NCBI RefSeq assembly: GCF_001610895.1
Contig: NZ_CP011273.1
Location: 5,456,001-5,520,000, forward strand
Reading direction: 5' to 3'
Origin: Planctomyces sp. SH-PL62
GTDB taxonomy: Bacteria > Planctomycetota > Planctomycetia > Isosphaerales > Isosphaeraceae
Length of the DNA: 64,000 nucleotides
This document shows, piece by piece, positions 13,008 to 21,387 of the stretch. Numbering within the stretch: the stretch's first letter is position 1; the number at the start of each line of letters is the position of its first letter. The translations under genes and the position numbers were made by a program. A model generated the notes under the pieces. It saw only the letters and a list, made by a program, of their open reading frames with translations. It made no database searches and had not been told where the DNA came from.

Positions 13008-15032
13008 ATGACGCTTGAGGCGATCGCCCCACTCCCGTGTTCCTCGCGGAACGAAGCCCCGACGCAACTGCCGGTGCTGCCGCTCGTTCCGATCTCGCGT
13101 CCGCACCTCCCGGCCTCCCGCGCCGAGATGGACGCGCGGGGATGGGACGCAGTCGACGTGGTCCTCGTCACCGGCGACGCCTACGTCGACCACCCCGCCT
13201 TCGCGATGGGGATCCTCGGCCGGGTGCTGGAAGCGGCCGGATTCCGGGTTGCGATCCTGAGCCAGCCCGACTGGCGGAGCGCCGAGCCCTGGCGGCAGTT
13301 CGGCCGCCCCCGGCTGTTCTTCGGCGTCAGCGCCGGGAACATGGACAGCATGATCAACCACTATACGGCCAACAAGAAGGTCCGTAACGACGACGCCTAC
13401 AGCCCCGGCGGCCGGATCGGCCTGCGCCCCGACCGCGCCACGATCCCCTACTGCCACCGCTCTCGCGAGGCCTTCCCCGGCGTCCCGATCATCGCCGGAG
13501 GGGTCGAGGCCTCGCTTCGCAGGCTGGCGCACTACGACTACTGGAGCGACACCGTCAAGCGGTCGATCCTGCTGGACTCGAAGGCCGACCTCGTCGTCTT
13601 CGGCATGGGCGAGCAGCCGATCGTCGAGATCGCCCGGCGGCTCCAGGCCGGCGAGTCCACCCGCAACCTGCGCGACATGCGGGCCGTCGCCTACGCGATG
13701 GGTGCCAGCGAGACCCCGCCGGCCGACGCGTTCGTCCTGCCGACCTTCGAGGAGGTCAAGGCCGACAAGCATCGGTTCGCCGAGGCCACCAAGCGGATCC
13801 ACCTGGAGACGAACCCGCTCAACGCCAGGCGGCTCGTCCAGTATCACGACCGCCAGGCCGTCGTCTGCAACCCTCCCGGCCTGCCGATCAGCCAGGACGA
13901 CATGGACCGCACCTACGGCCTGCCGTTCACCCGCCGCCCCCACCCCATGTACAAGGCGGAGCGGATCCCGGCGTACGAGGTCGTCAAGGATTCGGTGACG
14001 ATCATGCGGGGCTGCTTCGGCGGCTGCACCTTCTGCTCGATCACCGCCCACCAGGGCCGGATCATCCAGTCCCGCTCGCAGGAGTCGATCCTGACCGAGC
14101 TGAAGCAGATGGGCCAGGACCCGAAGTTCTCGGGCGTCGTCTCCGACATCGGCGGCCCGACCGCCAACATGTACCAGATGCGCTGCACCCGCCCCGAGGT
14201 GGAGGCCAAGTGCAAGCGGCTCTCGTGCGTGCATCCCACGGTCTGCAAGCTGCTGGGGACCGACCACGGACCCCTGATCGAGCTGATGAAGCAGAGTCGC
14301 GAGACGCCGGGGATCTCCAAGGTCCACGTCGCCTCGGGCATCCGCATGGACCTCGCCCAGAAGTCCCCCGAATACCTGGAGGAGCTGGCGACCCACCACG
14401 TCGGCGGCCACCTCAAGGTCGCCCCGGAGCACACCGACCCGGCCGTCCTCAAGCTGATGAAGAAGCCCGACTCCGAGGACTACGCGGGCTTCGCCGAGGC
14501 CTTCCAGAAGGCCAGCCGCAAGGCTGGCAAGAAGCAGTTCCTGGTGCCGTACTACATCGCCTCCCACCCGGGGAGCGACCTGAACGCCATGATCGACCTG
14601 GCCGTCTTCCTCAAGCGCAACGGCTACCGCCCCGACCAGGTCCAGGACTTCATCCCCGCGCCGTTCGACATCGCCACCTGCATGTACTACACCGGCATGG
14701 ACCCGTTCACCGGCGCGGAGGTCTACGTCGCGCAGCACCTCCGCGACCGCAAGCTCCAGCGGGCGCTGATGCAATTCTTCAAGCCGGAGAACTATTTCAT
14801 GGTCCGCGAGGCGCTGCTCAAGGCGGCGCGACAGGACCTTATCGGAAGCGGGTGCGATTGCCTGATCCCGGCGAATCCCCCGCAGGCCGCCCTGCAGGCG
14901 CGCAGGGAGAAGGCGAACGAGTCGCTGGGCGAGGGTAAGTACGTCCACCAGATCCCGCCCCAGGGATCGAAGGGCTATCGGCCGGGACGGACCTCGGCTC
15001 AGCGACGTCAGGGGAAAAAGCAGGGTTCGTGA
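13008..15032 (+). CDS. ygiQ: YgiQ-family radical SAM protein
   Basis: Radical S-adenosylmethionine enzyme of the UPF0313/YgiQ family, 674 residues; the reaction is not established. The N-terminal DUF3362-type start has [20 protein letters not shown] and GIDVEAS-like segments ([20 protein letters not shown]). The [4Fe-4S] motif is [10 protein letters not shown] (Cys 336, 340, 343). SAM-binding and barrel landmarks follow ([35 protein letters not shown]). The conserved C-terminal part is [25 protein letters not shown]. The tail is basic. Start at 13008 chosen as the first ATG after a TTGACG/CATAAT region. A decayed copy of its C-terminal part lies at 17301-17507, beyond the next gene. Confidence 0.93.
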
Positions 15033-17827: not shown

Positions 17828-19333
17828 ATGCCCCGCAGAGACTCGCGTCCCCCTCGCCACCGCTCCTCGTCGCCCGGCTCGAAGCCGCCGGGAGGGCGGC
17901 CCCGCCCCAAGACGGCCTCCGGCGACCGCCCGAAGCCCCCGGGCGGACGGCCGACCTTCAAGACCGCCCCGCGCGGTAAGACCATGCCGGTCCTCGCCGG
18001 CCTGATCGCCACCATCGCCCCCAAGGTCCTCCGCGACGTCCTGGACCGCGGCAAGCGGCTCGAATCGGCGATCGTCGACGCCCAGGGCGACGAGGCCAAG
18101 AAGAAGTCCACTCGGTCCGACCGCATGATGATCAACCGATCCCTCGCCTCGCTGGTGCGCTGGTGGGGCTGGATCGAGCCCCTCAAGCTCGTGCACGTCG
18201 AGGAGCAGCTCCTGCTGGCCTGGCTGCTCGACGCCCCCGACCTGCCGGCCGTCCCCCGGCTCTGGGCCAGCCGCTCCGGCCGCGACCCCAGCCGCCTCTT
18301 CTCCGGCGGCGACGCCCCCAACTGGACGGCCCGCGCCGAGACCCTGAAGCGGTTCGTCGCCGGCCGCACCGTCGCCGCCGACCCCTGGATGCCCTTCCCG
18401 AACTGGCTCCGCGACGAACTGCCGCTCCCCCCGGGAGAGGAGTCGGCCAAGATCCGCAAGCTCCACTTCCTCCACGCCGTCCAGGCCCCCCCCTCGCTGT
18501 GGGTCGCCGTCCGCGGCAGGCCCCCCAAGGACGTCTGGAACGAACTCCACGAGGACGGCCTCAAGCCCTGGGTCCAGCGCAAGATCGAGTCGGCCGCCCG
18601 GCTCGAGCGCGACGCCGACCTCCGCCGCCTGGAGTCGTTCCAGACCGGCTCCCTGCTCGTCGAGGACCTGGGCTCGCAAGCCGTGGCCAAGGTCTGCGAC
18701 CCCGACCCCGGCGAACGCTGGTGGGACGTGGGCGACGGCGCGGGGCTCTTCGCCCTGGGCCTGGCCGACGAGATGGCCGGCAAGGGGACCATCATCTCGA
18801 CCTTCGAGCACGAGCCGTCCCGCCTCTCCGCCGTCAAGCGGCTCCGCTCCAGCCCCTACACCAACGTGGCCGCCAAGACCTGGGACGGCCGACGCCCCCC
18901 CGGCAAGCCCGAGAGCTTCGACGGCGTCCTCGTCGCCCCCCCCAGCTCCGGGGTCGGCTCGTGGCGCCGCCACCCCGAGGTCCGCTGGATCATCAAGGCC
19001 GACCAGCTCCCCGAACTCGTCGCCCGCCAGAAGAAGCTCCTGGCCCTCGCCGCGACGGCCGTCCGCCCCGGCGGGACCCTGGTCTACACCGTCGGCACCG
19101 TGACCCTCCGCGAGACCCAGGGCCTCATCAACGAGTTCCTCGAAGAATCGCCCGACTTCCGACTCGACCCGTTCCCGCACCCGCTGGAAGACGGCGAGAC
19201 CACCGGCATGCTCCAGCTCTGGCCCCAGACCCACGACTGCGAGGCCCGCTTCATCGCCCGATTGGTCCGCACCGCCAAGCCGTCCGCCACCCCGCCGACC
19301 AGGACGACCGGGAAGAACCAGCCCCCTTCGTGA
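17828..19333 (+). CDS. RsmB/NSUN-like protein lacking the catalytic cysteines
   Basis: Resembles 16S rRNA m5C methyltransferases (Sun/RsmB), 501 residues. A basic, Pro/Arg-rich N-terminal tail (1-50) may bind RNA; a helical NusB-like segment follows (RDVLDRGKRLESAIVDA... LVRWWGWIEP), then a methyltransferase-like domain. Compared with active enzymes, motif I (normally DxCAAPGGKT) reads WDVGDGAGLFALGLA, motif IV (DAPCSGxG) reads VAPPSSGVG near residue 367, and motif VI (YSTCS) reads YTVGTVTL near 418. Both family cysteines, the nucleophile and the release residue, are therefore missing, and the protein is predicted to be inactive or repurposed. Start at 17828 with an upstream GAGG; an internal ATG at 17983 is possible. 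A tRNA gene follows. Confidence 0.78.
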   Translation: MPRRDSRPPRHRSSSPGSKPPGGRPRPKTASGDRPKPPGGRPTFKTAPRGKTMPVLAGLIATIAPKVLRDVLDRGKRLESAIVDAQGDEAKKKSTRSDRMMINRSLASLVRWWGWIEPLKLVHVEEQLLLAWLLDAPDLPAVPRLWASRSGRDPSRLFSGGDAPNWTARAETLKRFVAGRTVAADPWMPFPNWLRDELPLPPGEESAKIRKLHFLHAVQAPPSLWVAVRGRPPKDVWNELHEDGLKPWVQRKIESAARLERDADLRRLESFQTGSLLVEDLGSQAVAKVCDPDPGERWWDVGDGAGLFALGLADEMAGKGTIISTFEHEPSRLSAVKRLRSSPYTNVAAKTWDGRRPPGKPESFDGVLVAPPSSGVGSWRRHPEVRWIIKADQLPELVARQKKLLALAATAVRPGGTLVYTVGTVTLRETQGLINEFLEESPDFRLDPFPHPLEDGETTGMLQLWPQTHDCEARFIARLVRTAKPSATPPTRTTGKNQPPS

Positions 19334-19394: not shown

Positions 19395-19766
19395 GACCGG
19401 GTAGCTCAGTCGGTAGAGCAACGGACTTCAAGCGCGGCCTCGGCCGCGAAATAGGAGCCTCGCGCGGGAAGACGCACAACCGCGACGAGTGAATGCCGCT
19501 ATTTGCTGGAACGCCCTCAGAGCCCCTCGCACCACAACGCGGCCGGCGACGGCGATCGTGACGGTTCGAAAAGCGAGGGGATTGGGCCATCAGCAGGCAA
19601 GGCGCCGAGGGATCCTCGGCCCCAGCCTCAGAGACTAGACGCGGCACGCCTGCGATGGCGAAGAGATAGTCCAGACCATCAAGCCGACCCCCCGGGGCCG
19701 GTGGTCGGTGAAAGCCGATGAGGTAGGTTAATCCGTTGGTCGTGGGTTCGAGCCCCACCCCGGTCA
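19395..19766 (+). tRNA. tRNA-Lys(UUU) interrupted by a group I intron
   Basis: The 5' exon (19395-19428) and 3' exon (19728-19766) together form a 73-nt cloverleaf. The acceptor stem is GACCGGG/CCCGGTC (7 bp); then come the D arm GCTC...GAGC, the anticodon stem ACGGA/TCCGT, the loop CTTTTAA with anticodon TTT, the T arm GTGGG-TTCGAGC-CCCAC and discriminator A766. CCA is not encoded. The loop matches the usual tRNA-Lys(UUU) loop. The intron lies between anticodon positions 34 and 35, the same place as the well-known cyanobacterial tRNA-Leu(UAA) intron. Reading straight through without splicing would give an unusable loop. Confidence 0.93.
19429..19727 (+). ncRNA. Group I intron (IC3-like) in tRNA-Lys
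   Basis: A 299-nt insertion in the tRNA-Lys anticodon loop with group I features. The 5' exon ends in U and the intron ends in G (727). P1 can form between exon GG(A)CUU and intronic GAGCC (19455-19459), with the splice-site U pairing to G, as in the Anabaena tRNA-Leu intron. The P7 strands are AGAGACTAGACG (19630-19641) and GATAGTCC (19665-19672), nearly identical to those of the Azoarcus tRNA-Ile intron as I remember it. No homing endonuclease frame is present. Self-splicing is inferred, not tested. No tRNA group I intron in a planctomycete is known to me, but I cannot check. Confidence 0.9.
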
Positions 19767-19968: not shown

Positions 19969-21387
19969 TCAGGCGAGGATGTCGTCGACGACATGGCCGG
20001 CGACGTCGGTGAGGCGGAAGTCGCGGCCGGCGTAGCGGTAGGTCAGCTTCTCGTGGTCGAGCCCGATCAGGTGGAGGATCGTGGCGTGCAGGTCGTGGAT
20101 GTGGACCTTGTTCTGGACGGCGTAGTAGCCGTAGTCGTCGGTGGCGCCGTACTGGACGCCCCCCTTCACGCCGCCGCCGGCCATCCACATGGTGAAGCCT
20201 TCGGGGTTGTGGTCGCGGCCGTCCTTCCCCTGGGCGGTCGGGGTCCTTCCGAATTCGCCCCCCCAGAGTACCAGCGTATCCTGGAGTAGCCCCCGGGCCT
20301 TGAGGTCGCGGAGCAGGGCCGCGATCGGCCGGTCGACCTCGCGGGCGTTCTGCTCGTGGCCGTTCTTGAGGTCGCCGTGCTGGTCCCACTGGACGGCGGC
20401 GTTGCTGTGGGTGGCCTGTACGAACCGGACTCCGCGCTCGGCGAAGCGGCGGGCGAGGAGGCACTGGCGGCCGAAGTTCTCGGTGACGGGGTCGTCGAGG
20501 CCGTACGCCTTGAGGGTGGCGGGCGACTCGTCGGAGATGTCCTGGATCTCCGGCATCTCGGTCTGCATCCGGAAGGCCAGCTCGAACGACTCCAGGCGGC
20601 CTTCCAGCTTGGGGTCGGGGCCGGTCTGCTCCAGTTGCTCGCGGTTGATCTCCGCGAGCAGGTCGAGCTGGGCCCGCTGCTCGGCGGCGGAGAACCGGGG
20701 GCTCTGGATGAACTTGACCCGGGCCTCCTTCGCGGGGACTCCGGCGTTGCCCAGGGGCGTGCCCTGGTAGGGGGCGGGCAGGAAGGCGGAACTCCAGTTG
20801 GAGACGCCGCCGTGGGCCAGGGTCGGGCAGATGGTGAGGAAGCCCGGCAGGTTCTGGTTCTCGGTCCCCAGGCCGTAGGTGATCCAGGAGCCCATGCTCG
20901 GCCGGACGAAGTTGTCGCTGCCGGTGTGGAGCTTGAGCAGGGCGCCGCCGTGGGCCGCGTTGGTGCCGTGCAGGGAGTTGATGATGCAGAGGTCGTCCAC
21001 GCACTGGGCGACGTTCGGGAAGAGGTCGCTGACCAGGATCCCGCTCTCGCCGTAAGGCCGGAACTTCCAGGGGGAGCCCAGCAGCATTCCGGTGGGGGCG
21101 AACTGGACCCGGGGCTTGTCGAAGGGGAGCGGCTTGCCGTCGTCGCGCTGGAGGTTCGGCTTGTAGTCGAAGGTGTCGACGTGCGAGGGGCCCCCCTTCA
21201 TGAACAGGAAGATGACCCGCTTGGCGCGGGCCGGGAAGTGGGGGGCTCGCGGCGCCAGCGGGCCGGCCGAGTCCGCCCGGGCCTTCTCGTCGGCGAACAT
21301 CGCCGCCATCGCCAGGGAGCCGAACCCCGTGGCGCACGTCTGGAGCATCCGACGGCGGGAGACGAACCGTCGCGAGTGTTGGTCCAT
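19969..21387 (-). CDS. DUF1501 domain-containing secreted protein
   Basis: A 472-residue secreted protein of the DUF1501 family, which has an alkaline-phosphatase/sulfatase-like fold and is very abundant in planctomycetes. The N-terminus SRRRMLQTCATGFGSLAM is Tat-like. Family landmarks are RVIFLFMKGGPSHVDTFD (about 57-75), PTGMLLGSPWKF, GESGILVSDLFP, AAHGGALLKLHTG, and toward the end WGGEFGRTP and the motif GRDHNPEGFTMW. It is co-directional with, and probably co-transcribed after, the DUF1549/DUF1553 cytochrome gene 21 bp upstream. These two families travel together in planctomycetes; a role in polysaccharide or sulfated-compound breakdown is suspected but unproven. Confidence 0.9.
   Translation of the reverse strand: MDQHSRRFVSRRRMLQTCATGFGSLAMAAMFADEKARADSAGPLAPRAPHFPARAKRVIFLFMKGGPSHVDTFDYKPNLQRDDGKPLPFDKPRVQFAPTGMLLGSPWKFRPYGESGILVSDLFPNVAQCVDDLCIINSLHGTNAAHGGALLKLHTGSDNFVRPSMGSWITYGLGTENQNLPGFLTICPTLAHGGVSNWSSAFLPAPYQGTPLGNAGVPAKEARVKFIQSPRFSAAEQRAQLDLLAEINREQLEQTGPDPKLEGRLESFELAFRMQTEMPEIQDISDESPATLKAYGLDDPVTENFGRQCLLARRFAERGVRFVQATHSNAAVQWDQHGDLKNGHEQNAREVDRPIAALLRDLKARGLLQDTLVLWGGEFGRTPTAQGKDGRDHNPEGFTMWMAGGGVKGGVQYGATDDYGYYAVQNKVHIHDLHATILHLIGLDHEKLTYRYAGRDFRLTDVAGHVVDDILA

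Follow-up and report, generated by a model that had tools for sequence, protein, structure and literature searches.

A predicted self-splicing group I intron within the sole tRNA-Lys(UUU) gene detected in a planctomycete genome

In Planctomyces sp. SH-PL62 (Isosphaeraceae) the one tRNA-Lys(UUU) gene detected is very probably interrupted between U34 and U35 of its anticodon by a group I intron and spliced to a tRNA with the anticodon UUU. The gene lies in the stretch of 64,000 nucleotides that we analysed (hereafter the window, to which all plain coordinates refer), and the reading of the lysine codon AAA in this bacterium probably depends on the intron excising itself. The finding adds tRNA-Lys(UUU) and, together with the related introns described below, tRNA-Lys(CUU) to the tRNAs known to host such introns, and extends the range of host lineages to Planctomycetota.

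Anatomy, reading register and uniqueness of the split gene

A 299-nt insert separates positions 34 and 35 of the gene, and the exons on either side of it (Table 1), once joined, give a 73-nt tRNA with a complete cloverleaf that ARAGORN types as Lys(TTT), in agreement with the earlier sequence-only reading, which had derived a tRNA-Lys(UUU) cloverleaf from the removal of the same 299 nt. The last base of the 5' exon is U, and the insert has C as its first and G as its last base; the rule of an exon-end U and an intron-terminal G, to which that reading had also drawn attention, holds in 30/30 orthologues. Intron-free Isosphaeraceae genes (genomes G021 and G034) carry a 5' exon 100% identical to that of the window over 34 nt, with a 3' exon of 92% identity to its counterpart adjoining it without interruption, have the anticodon loop CTTTTAA and are likewise typed Lys(TTT). 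Precise removal of the insert restores tRNA-Lys(TTT), the same gene being uninterrupted in these relatives, and the exon boundaries and the intron-free genes agree on the proposed insertion point between anticodon positions 34 and 35. No reading frame of homing-endonuclease size is present in the 299-nt intron, the longest stop-free stretch (about 99 codons) running antisense.

Annotation programs handle this gene poorly. Standard ARAGORN reports zero tRNAs in the 64-kb window, and its intron mode shifts both boundaries by one base with respect to the Lys register and prints Asn(GTT), as it does for many of the relatives as well. The gene would then be a tRNA-Asn(GUU) with the 5' exon GGACU and a 3' exon starting GUUAA, and in the window copy this register too leaves a U at the exon end and a G at the intron end. 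We nevertheless consider it extremely improbable and rejected it as wrong: it places the last intron base on a position that varies across the 30 orthologues (G in 11, A in 8, C in 8 and T in 3), whereas in the Lys register every one of them has G as the final intron base; the intron-free genes show the loop CTTTTAA; and two intact Asn(GTT) genes already exist in the genome, which would in turn be missing Lys(UUU). As the standard mode misses the gene and the intron mode misnames it, genomes of this family can appear devoid of a tRNA reading AAA.

Each of the 52 tRNA hits in the genome was assigned a type; one is Lys(CTT), two are Asn(GTT) and none is Lys(TTT). A search of the genome for the pattern of a Lys(UUU) gene without intron, two mismatches being tolerated, gave no match, the pattern being blind to Lys(UUU) genes with more than two mismatches or split by another intron. 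Applied to 45 family genomes it retrieved ten matches, namely the Lys(UUU) genes of G021, G034, G061 and G062, all of them genomes without a match to the intron model, and six tRNAs that their loops identify as others; within the same two mismatches, no intact second Lys(UUU) gene turned up in the 36 intron-bearing genomes. The tRNA-Lys(CTT) is not expected to decode AAA, and AAA codons are in use but rare (five long window frames contain 5 AAA and 109 AAG). With no second tRNA-Lys(UUU) gene detected, splicing is probably essential in this genome; the sequence-only reading had made the same claim on the proviso that the gene be the sole one of its kind, and no other appeared among the 52 typed tRNAs or in the pattern search of the genome.

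Fold of the intron and predicted splicing

Thirty orthologous introns were aligned, and P7 was added as a pseudoknot to the consensus fold before pairs were counted. Of the 1915 cells of the group I fold, including the P3/P7 pseudoknot, 98.5% are paired. Changes on both sides affect 25 of its 64 pairs, compared with 10.3 (sd 1.7) in shuffles, a value as high being obtained in 0/500, and none of five fold measures was reached by any of the 500 shuffles. When the partners were slid by one to three columns, only 6-10 pairs changed on both sides and 30-42% of the cells remained paired. An unguided RNAalifold consensus of the 30 sequences recovers P1-P6 and P8.

Table 1. Exons, intron and ribozyme helices of the tRNA-Lys(UUU) gene (window coordinates)
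Feature	Position	Strand	Support
5' exon of tRNA-Lys(UUU), ends C32-U33-U34	19395-19428	+	same 34 nt in intron-free G021 and G034 genes
Group I intron, 299 nt, 66.6% GC	19429-19727	+	fold, exon joining, weak Rfam match
P1: exon GGACUU (19423-19428) with guide GAGCC (19455-19459), U34.G wobble at splice site	19423-19459	+	100% paired, 30 sequences
P2: 19463-19467 with 19480-19484	19463-19484	+	alignment of 30
P3 5' strand, partner 19641-19646	19494-19499	+	99.4% paired; 3/6 pairs change both sides
P4: 19504-19509 with 19590-19595; encloses P5 and extended P5 region 19514-19586, GNRA-type loop	19504-19595	+	
P6 and P6a	19596-19627	+	5/7 P6a pairs change both sides
P7: GACTA (19633-19637) with TAGTC (19667-19671), pseudoknotted with P3; encloses P3 3' strand and P8 (19647-19660)	19633-19671	+	100% paired
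3'-end hairpin, GAAA loop, probably P9	19705-19718	+	100% paired; U-A to C-G in 2/30
Intron terminal guanosine	19727	+	G in 30/30 orthologues
3' exon, U35-U36 to discriminator A73, CCA not encoded	19728-19766	+	starts TTAATCC in 30/30 orthologues

The two helices that had been picked out from the letters of the window, P1 and P7, are both present and fully paired in the 30 sequences, and they differ in what the alignment can tell about them. In P7, 8/30 sequences have C-G in place of A-U at one pair, both partners having changed, whereas 4/5 pairs of P1 are invariant, so that covariation cannot test this helix. The P5 extension, which is common to the Lys introns of the window family and to the nrdJ-like introns considered below, covaries in 8/10 pairs of its inner three helices. 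Given this extended P5, membership of subgroup IC3 (Azoarcus/Anabaena type) is uncertain.

The Rfam group I model (RF00028, cut-off 50 bits) assigns the window copy 23.7 bits (E 4.6e-4), and does so only when the 372 bases are submitted alone: it gives no match at E<=1 on 2.5 kb around the locus, and in a search of the whole genome at E<=10 the Lys locus was not matched. The same model matches the Lys intron with E<=0.01 in nine family genomes and exceeds its cut-off in three (57.2 bits in G064, 54.9 in G036 and 54.1 in G027), and it scores a related Lys(CUU) intron at 54.9 bits and the nrdJ-like intron L183 at 52.9 bits; with Lys and other introns counted together, it matches 43/45 family genomes. 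The sequence-only reading had named the lack of a significant group I covariance score as one observation that would count against its proposal. In this respect the window copy, below the cut-off, speaks against the assignment and the three high-scoring orthologues speak for it. Since orthologues pass the cut-off while the window copy misses it, the Rfam score alone is not decisive, and the low value of the window copy reflects the reach of the model, for which the long P5 region is hard, and not the nature of the intron. The covarying fold, the terminal G, the U.G pair at the splice site and the orthologues above the cut-off bear out the identification of the insert as a group I intron.

That low score, with splicing predicted here from sequence, would also suit a dead gene, in which a decayed intron sits in a pseudogene while another source provides Lys(UUU). 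Such decay is scarcely credible in view of exons that are intact and almost invariant across the family, of a fold maintained by compensatory changes and of the failure to find another Lys(UUU) gene in the genome.

On the favoured reading, a guanosine held in P7 would attack after U34, and the freed 5' exon would then attack after the terminal G of the intron, releasing a tRNA-Lys with the anticodon UUU, as required for AAA. We infer this chemistry, along with its occurrence in the cell, its independence of any protein and the lethality of its loss. Some group I introns are known to need helpers, and the fold described here could have ceased to work alone and require a protein for splicing; this we regard as unlikely, the core helices being well preserved. 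The intron is present in cultured strains, among them Isosphaera pallida and Singulisphaera acidiphila, and both splicing and its necessity are thus open to direct test.

Distribution and inheritance in Isosphaeraceae

The planctomycete host proposed by the sequence-only reading proved to be one of many, as our intron model R1 matches 36/45 searched genomes of the family and 24/26 of the good ones; a match to the intron pattern was also found in Singulisphaera acidiphila (NC_019892). The nine family genomes without a match comprise five of the genus g17 together with G015, G032, G026 and G010, G015 and G032 being incomplete MAGs. In an rpoB tree of 30 genomes, rooted at midpoint, G021 and G062 of g17 take a nested position among genera that carry the intron (support 95/86), and the distances between introns agree with those between rpoB genes (Spearman 0.68, permutation p 0.001, 20 genomes). 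The absences need four changes on the rpoB tree, a number as low in 113/500 shuffles; shuffles often equal it because G015, G032 and G010 are also counted as absences. The intron-free genes identified within the family come only from the genus of G021 and G062, where the exons are intact, and outside the family intron-free Lys(TTT) genes were typed in eight genomes of the same class (L084-L088, L090, L091 and L093). On the midpoint root, the simplest reading is that the intron would be older than the deepest sampled split of the family, vertically inherited and precisely lost in g17. Its clean absence from one genus beside intron-bearing kin provides a natural comparison of bacteria with and without the intron.

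In the window a gene for an RsmB/F-type methyltransferase (17828-19333) lies directly upstream of the tRNA gene; other neighbours encode a YgiQ-like radical SAM protein (13008-15032) and, downstream on the opposite strand, a DUF1501 protein (19969-21387). An RsmB/F-like gene occurs upstream beside the intron-containing gene in 3/20 loci, all of them from the genus of the window, as seen in flanks of only 1.5 kb.

A phage-type integrase gene (Pfam PF00589) adjoins the tRNA-Lys gene in G001, G002, G005 and G008, and in these genomes a copy of the tRNA-Lys 3' exon, preceded by some 7-10 nt of the intron 3' end, is found 6 to 74 kb downstream; in G003 the copy of the 3' exon is on a different contig. 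The integrase frame of G002 and G005 is antisense and extends into the 3' exon and the intron. These arrangements (loci L034, L094, L095, L097, L098, L103, L104 and L105) are likely to represent integrated elements whose attachment site spans the 3' splice site of the intron. G019 holds two intron copies on two contigs (L045 and L099/L116), the second of which looks the same as the G020 copy (L050/L123) over the letters compared and may be due to MAG contamination.

Related introns and possible origins

In a sample of the phylum 9/392 genomes gave a match: the window genome, G018, and genomes with introns in Lys(UUU) (L148), Arg(UCU) (L149 and L153) and 23S rRNA (L150-L152, assigned by their flanks) or with the weak match L154, where no such host gene is in sight; in the family of L148, 4/120 genomes match. 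A pattern scan of named genomes returned 33 stretches; besides those from Isosphaeraceae and other planctomycete MAGs, they include Lys(UUU) introns in two MAGs of Gemmataceae (L119 and L131) and Lys(CUU) introns in MAGs titled Chloroflexi (L112) and Acidobacteria (L134 and L138). Samples taken around the Acidobacteria and the Chloroflexi MAG contained 19/297 and 16/301 matching genomes, respectively. The hosts in these two samples, read at most of the matched loci (L178-L182 and L197 excepted), include Lys(CUU), Arg(UCU), Leu(UAA) and CAU tRNAs, 23S rRNA and class II ribonucleotide reductase-like genes, no such host gene being visible at L177 and L196. Exon joining at the predicted sites yielded the expected anticodon in 18/18 loci, each with a U before the intron and a G at its end.

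The Gemmataceae Lys(UUU) introns and the Lys(CUU) and Arg(UCU) introns of the Acidobacteria and Chloroflexi samples match the Lys model at 87-107 bits, with a P5 extension shorter than that of the window family. All relatives that could be placed end in G; those in Lys(UUU) and Arg(UCU) cut after U34 like the window intron, whereas those in Lys(CUU) cut one base later, at 35|36. The best BLAST match among ten loci compared is the reductase-like intron L183, whose P3-P5 region agrees with the Isosphaeraceae consensus at 83% over 98 nt (E 6e-24), the identity to the window copy being 75% over 114 nt. Unlike the window intron with its tRNA host, L183 and its companions L184-L186 interrupt a protein-coding gene; these introns of the Chloroflexi sample are inserted after ...STEAIKQGGTR, and the gene was named by eye from its sequence as class II ribonucleotide reductase-like. 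Related introns were also seen, as judged by flanking sequence, in 23S rRNA genes (L150-L152, L167-L169, L187-L190 and L194), several of them holding a frame that, by eye, resembles a LAGLIDADG endonuclease.

The cyanobacterial tRNA-Leu(UAA) intron is inserted at U34|35, a position that we read directly in a pair of Leu(UAA) introns from the sample around the Acidobacteria MAG. Introns of this type share with the window intron, besides the site, the exon GGACUU, the U.G pair at the splice site, the terminal G and similar P7 words, and differ from it in their host tRNA and in the extended P5 of the window intron, the two not forming one clade on the core. It was from the common site that the sequence-only reading had suggested transfer or site-specific spread; a transfer from the Leu intron was not upheld by our phylogenetic analysis. 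The core tree comprises 59 introns and 141 columns of an alignment fitted to the Lys model, with Leu introns drawn from the sample around the Acidobacteria MAG; two weak extra L168 matches and the weak L001 match were left out before the first tree, 22/56 inner branches are open and the 23S branches are long. On these 141 columns, which include no cyanobacterial rows, the AU test rejects the union of the Isosphaeraceae Lys introns with those of Leu(UAA) in one clade (p 0.0167, log-likelihood lower by 54.4), and the Leu, CAU and similar introns stand apart as a separate, well supported group. An acquisition from a cyanobacterial-type tRNA-Leu(UAA) intron, for which the identical insertion point and 5' exon, the cut after U34 in the Leu(UAA) introns read here and the resemblance of the P7 words could be invoked, is very unlikely in the light of that rejection and of that separate group. 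A single clade of all Lys introns does not reach rejection (AU p 0.368); the Isosphaeraceae rows do not themselves form one clade in the core tree, where such a clade is equally spared rejection (p 0.439), and the reductase-like introns fall on the Leu/CAU side of these rows. The Arg(UCU) introns L164 and L165, cut at 34|35, belong to none of the four clades tested.

A shared target, and not shared descent, best explains the insertion site common to the Lys(UUU) and Leu(UAA) introns, which coincide because the 5' exon GGACUU is identical in both tRNAs. Judged by eye, a guide GAG can pair with C32-U33-U34 in Lys(UUU), Leu(UAA) and the Arg(UCU) of L164/L165, all of which are cut after U34, and a guide GGAG reads the loop of Lys(CUU), which is cut one base later. 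We may tentatively envisage a single lineage of introns with the P5 module that moved between dissimilar genes and across phyla, with tRNA-Lys and tRNA-Arg as hosts in Planctomycetota and other groups and a ribonucleotide reductase gene as host in Chloroflexi, by means of such a short guide, GAG reading the C32-U33-U34 common to several U34 tRNAs and GGAG the Lys(CUU) loop one base later, and that, in almost the entire family, became fixed and vertically inherited in the sole tRNA-Lys(UUU) gene; this scenario is possible, if less than probable.

The tRNA-Ile(CAU) of Azoarcus carries a group I intron in its anticodon loop. Introns of this kind, including the Ile2 group I introns mentioned for Acidovorax and Burkholderia in excerpts of the tRNAscan-SE 2.0 paper (PMC8450103), resemble the window intron in being anticodon-loop group I introns of tRNAs; the same excerpts describe reported fMet and Ile2 introns as lying outside the detection design of that program. 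The excerpted part of a 2014 tRNA review gives cyanobacteria and alpha- and beta-proteobacteria as hosts (PMC4033280), and excerpts of a further paper place introns in Arg-TCT and Leu-TAA of Thiomargarita and Beggiatoa (PMC4853749). Term searches found neither 'Lys', 'lysine' nor 'planctomycet' in the searched text of a 2014 review of bacterial group I introns (PMC3984707), nor 'Lys' in that of an archaeal group I intron paper (PMC6125680). A group I intron of 37-49 nt has been claimed for the tRNA-Lys(CTT) of Gloeocapsa sp. PCC 73106 (Mohanta 2017, PMC5733544, in excerpt); it would be, like that of the window, an anticodon-loop intron of a bacterial tRNA-Lys, though from another phylum and with another anticodon, and we judge that the length given in the excerpt falls well below what a group I ribozyme needs. 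No convincing earlier report of such an intron was found in an open-access library holding few subscription papers and no preprints, and within these bounds the intron would appear to belong to a familiar type while both its host tRNA and its lineage are new.

The window genome contains a second group I intron, in a tRNA with the anticodon CAU (L001:1480-1800, minus strand; G000:C1:2171063-2171327). It differs from the Lys intron both in its host tRNA and in being inserted after the anticodon, at 36|37. Its joined exons, with anticodon CAT, are typed as Met, and the tRNA is presumably Ile2, to go by its resemblance to E. coli ileX. This intron reaches 48.3 bits with the Rfam model, just below the cut-off, and matches the Lys model weakly, at 14.8 bits.
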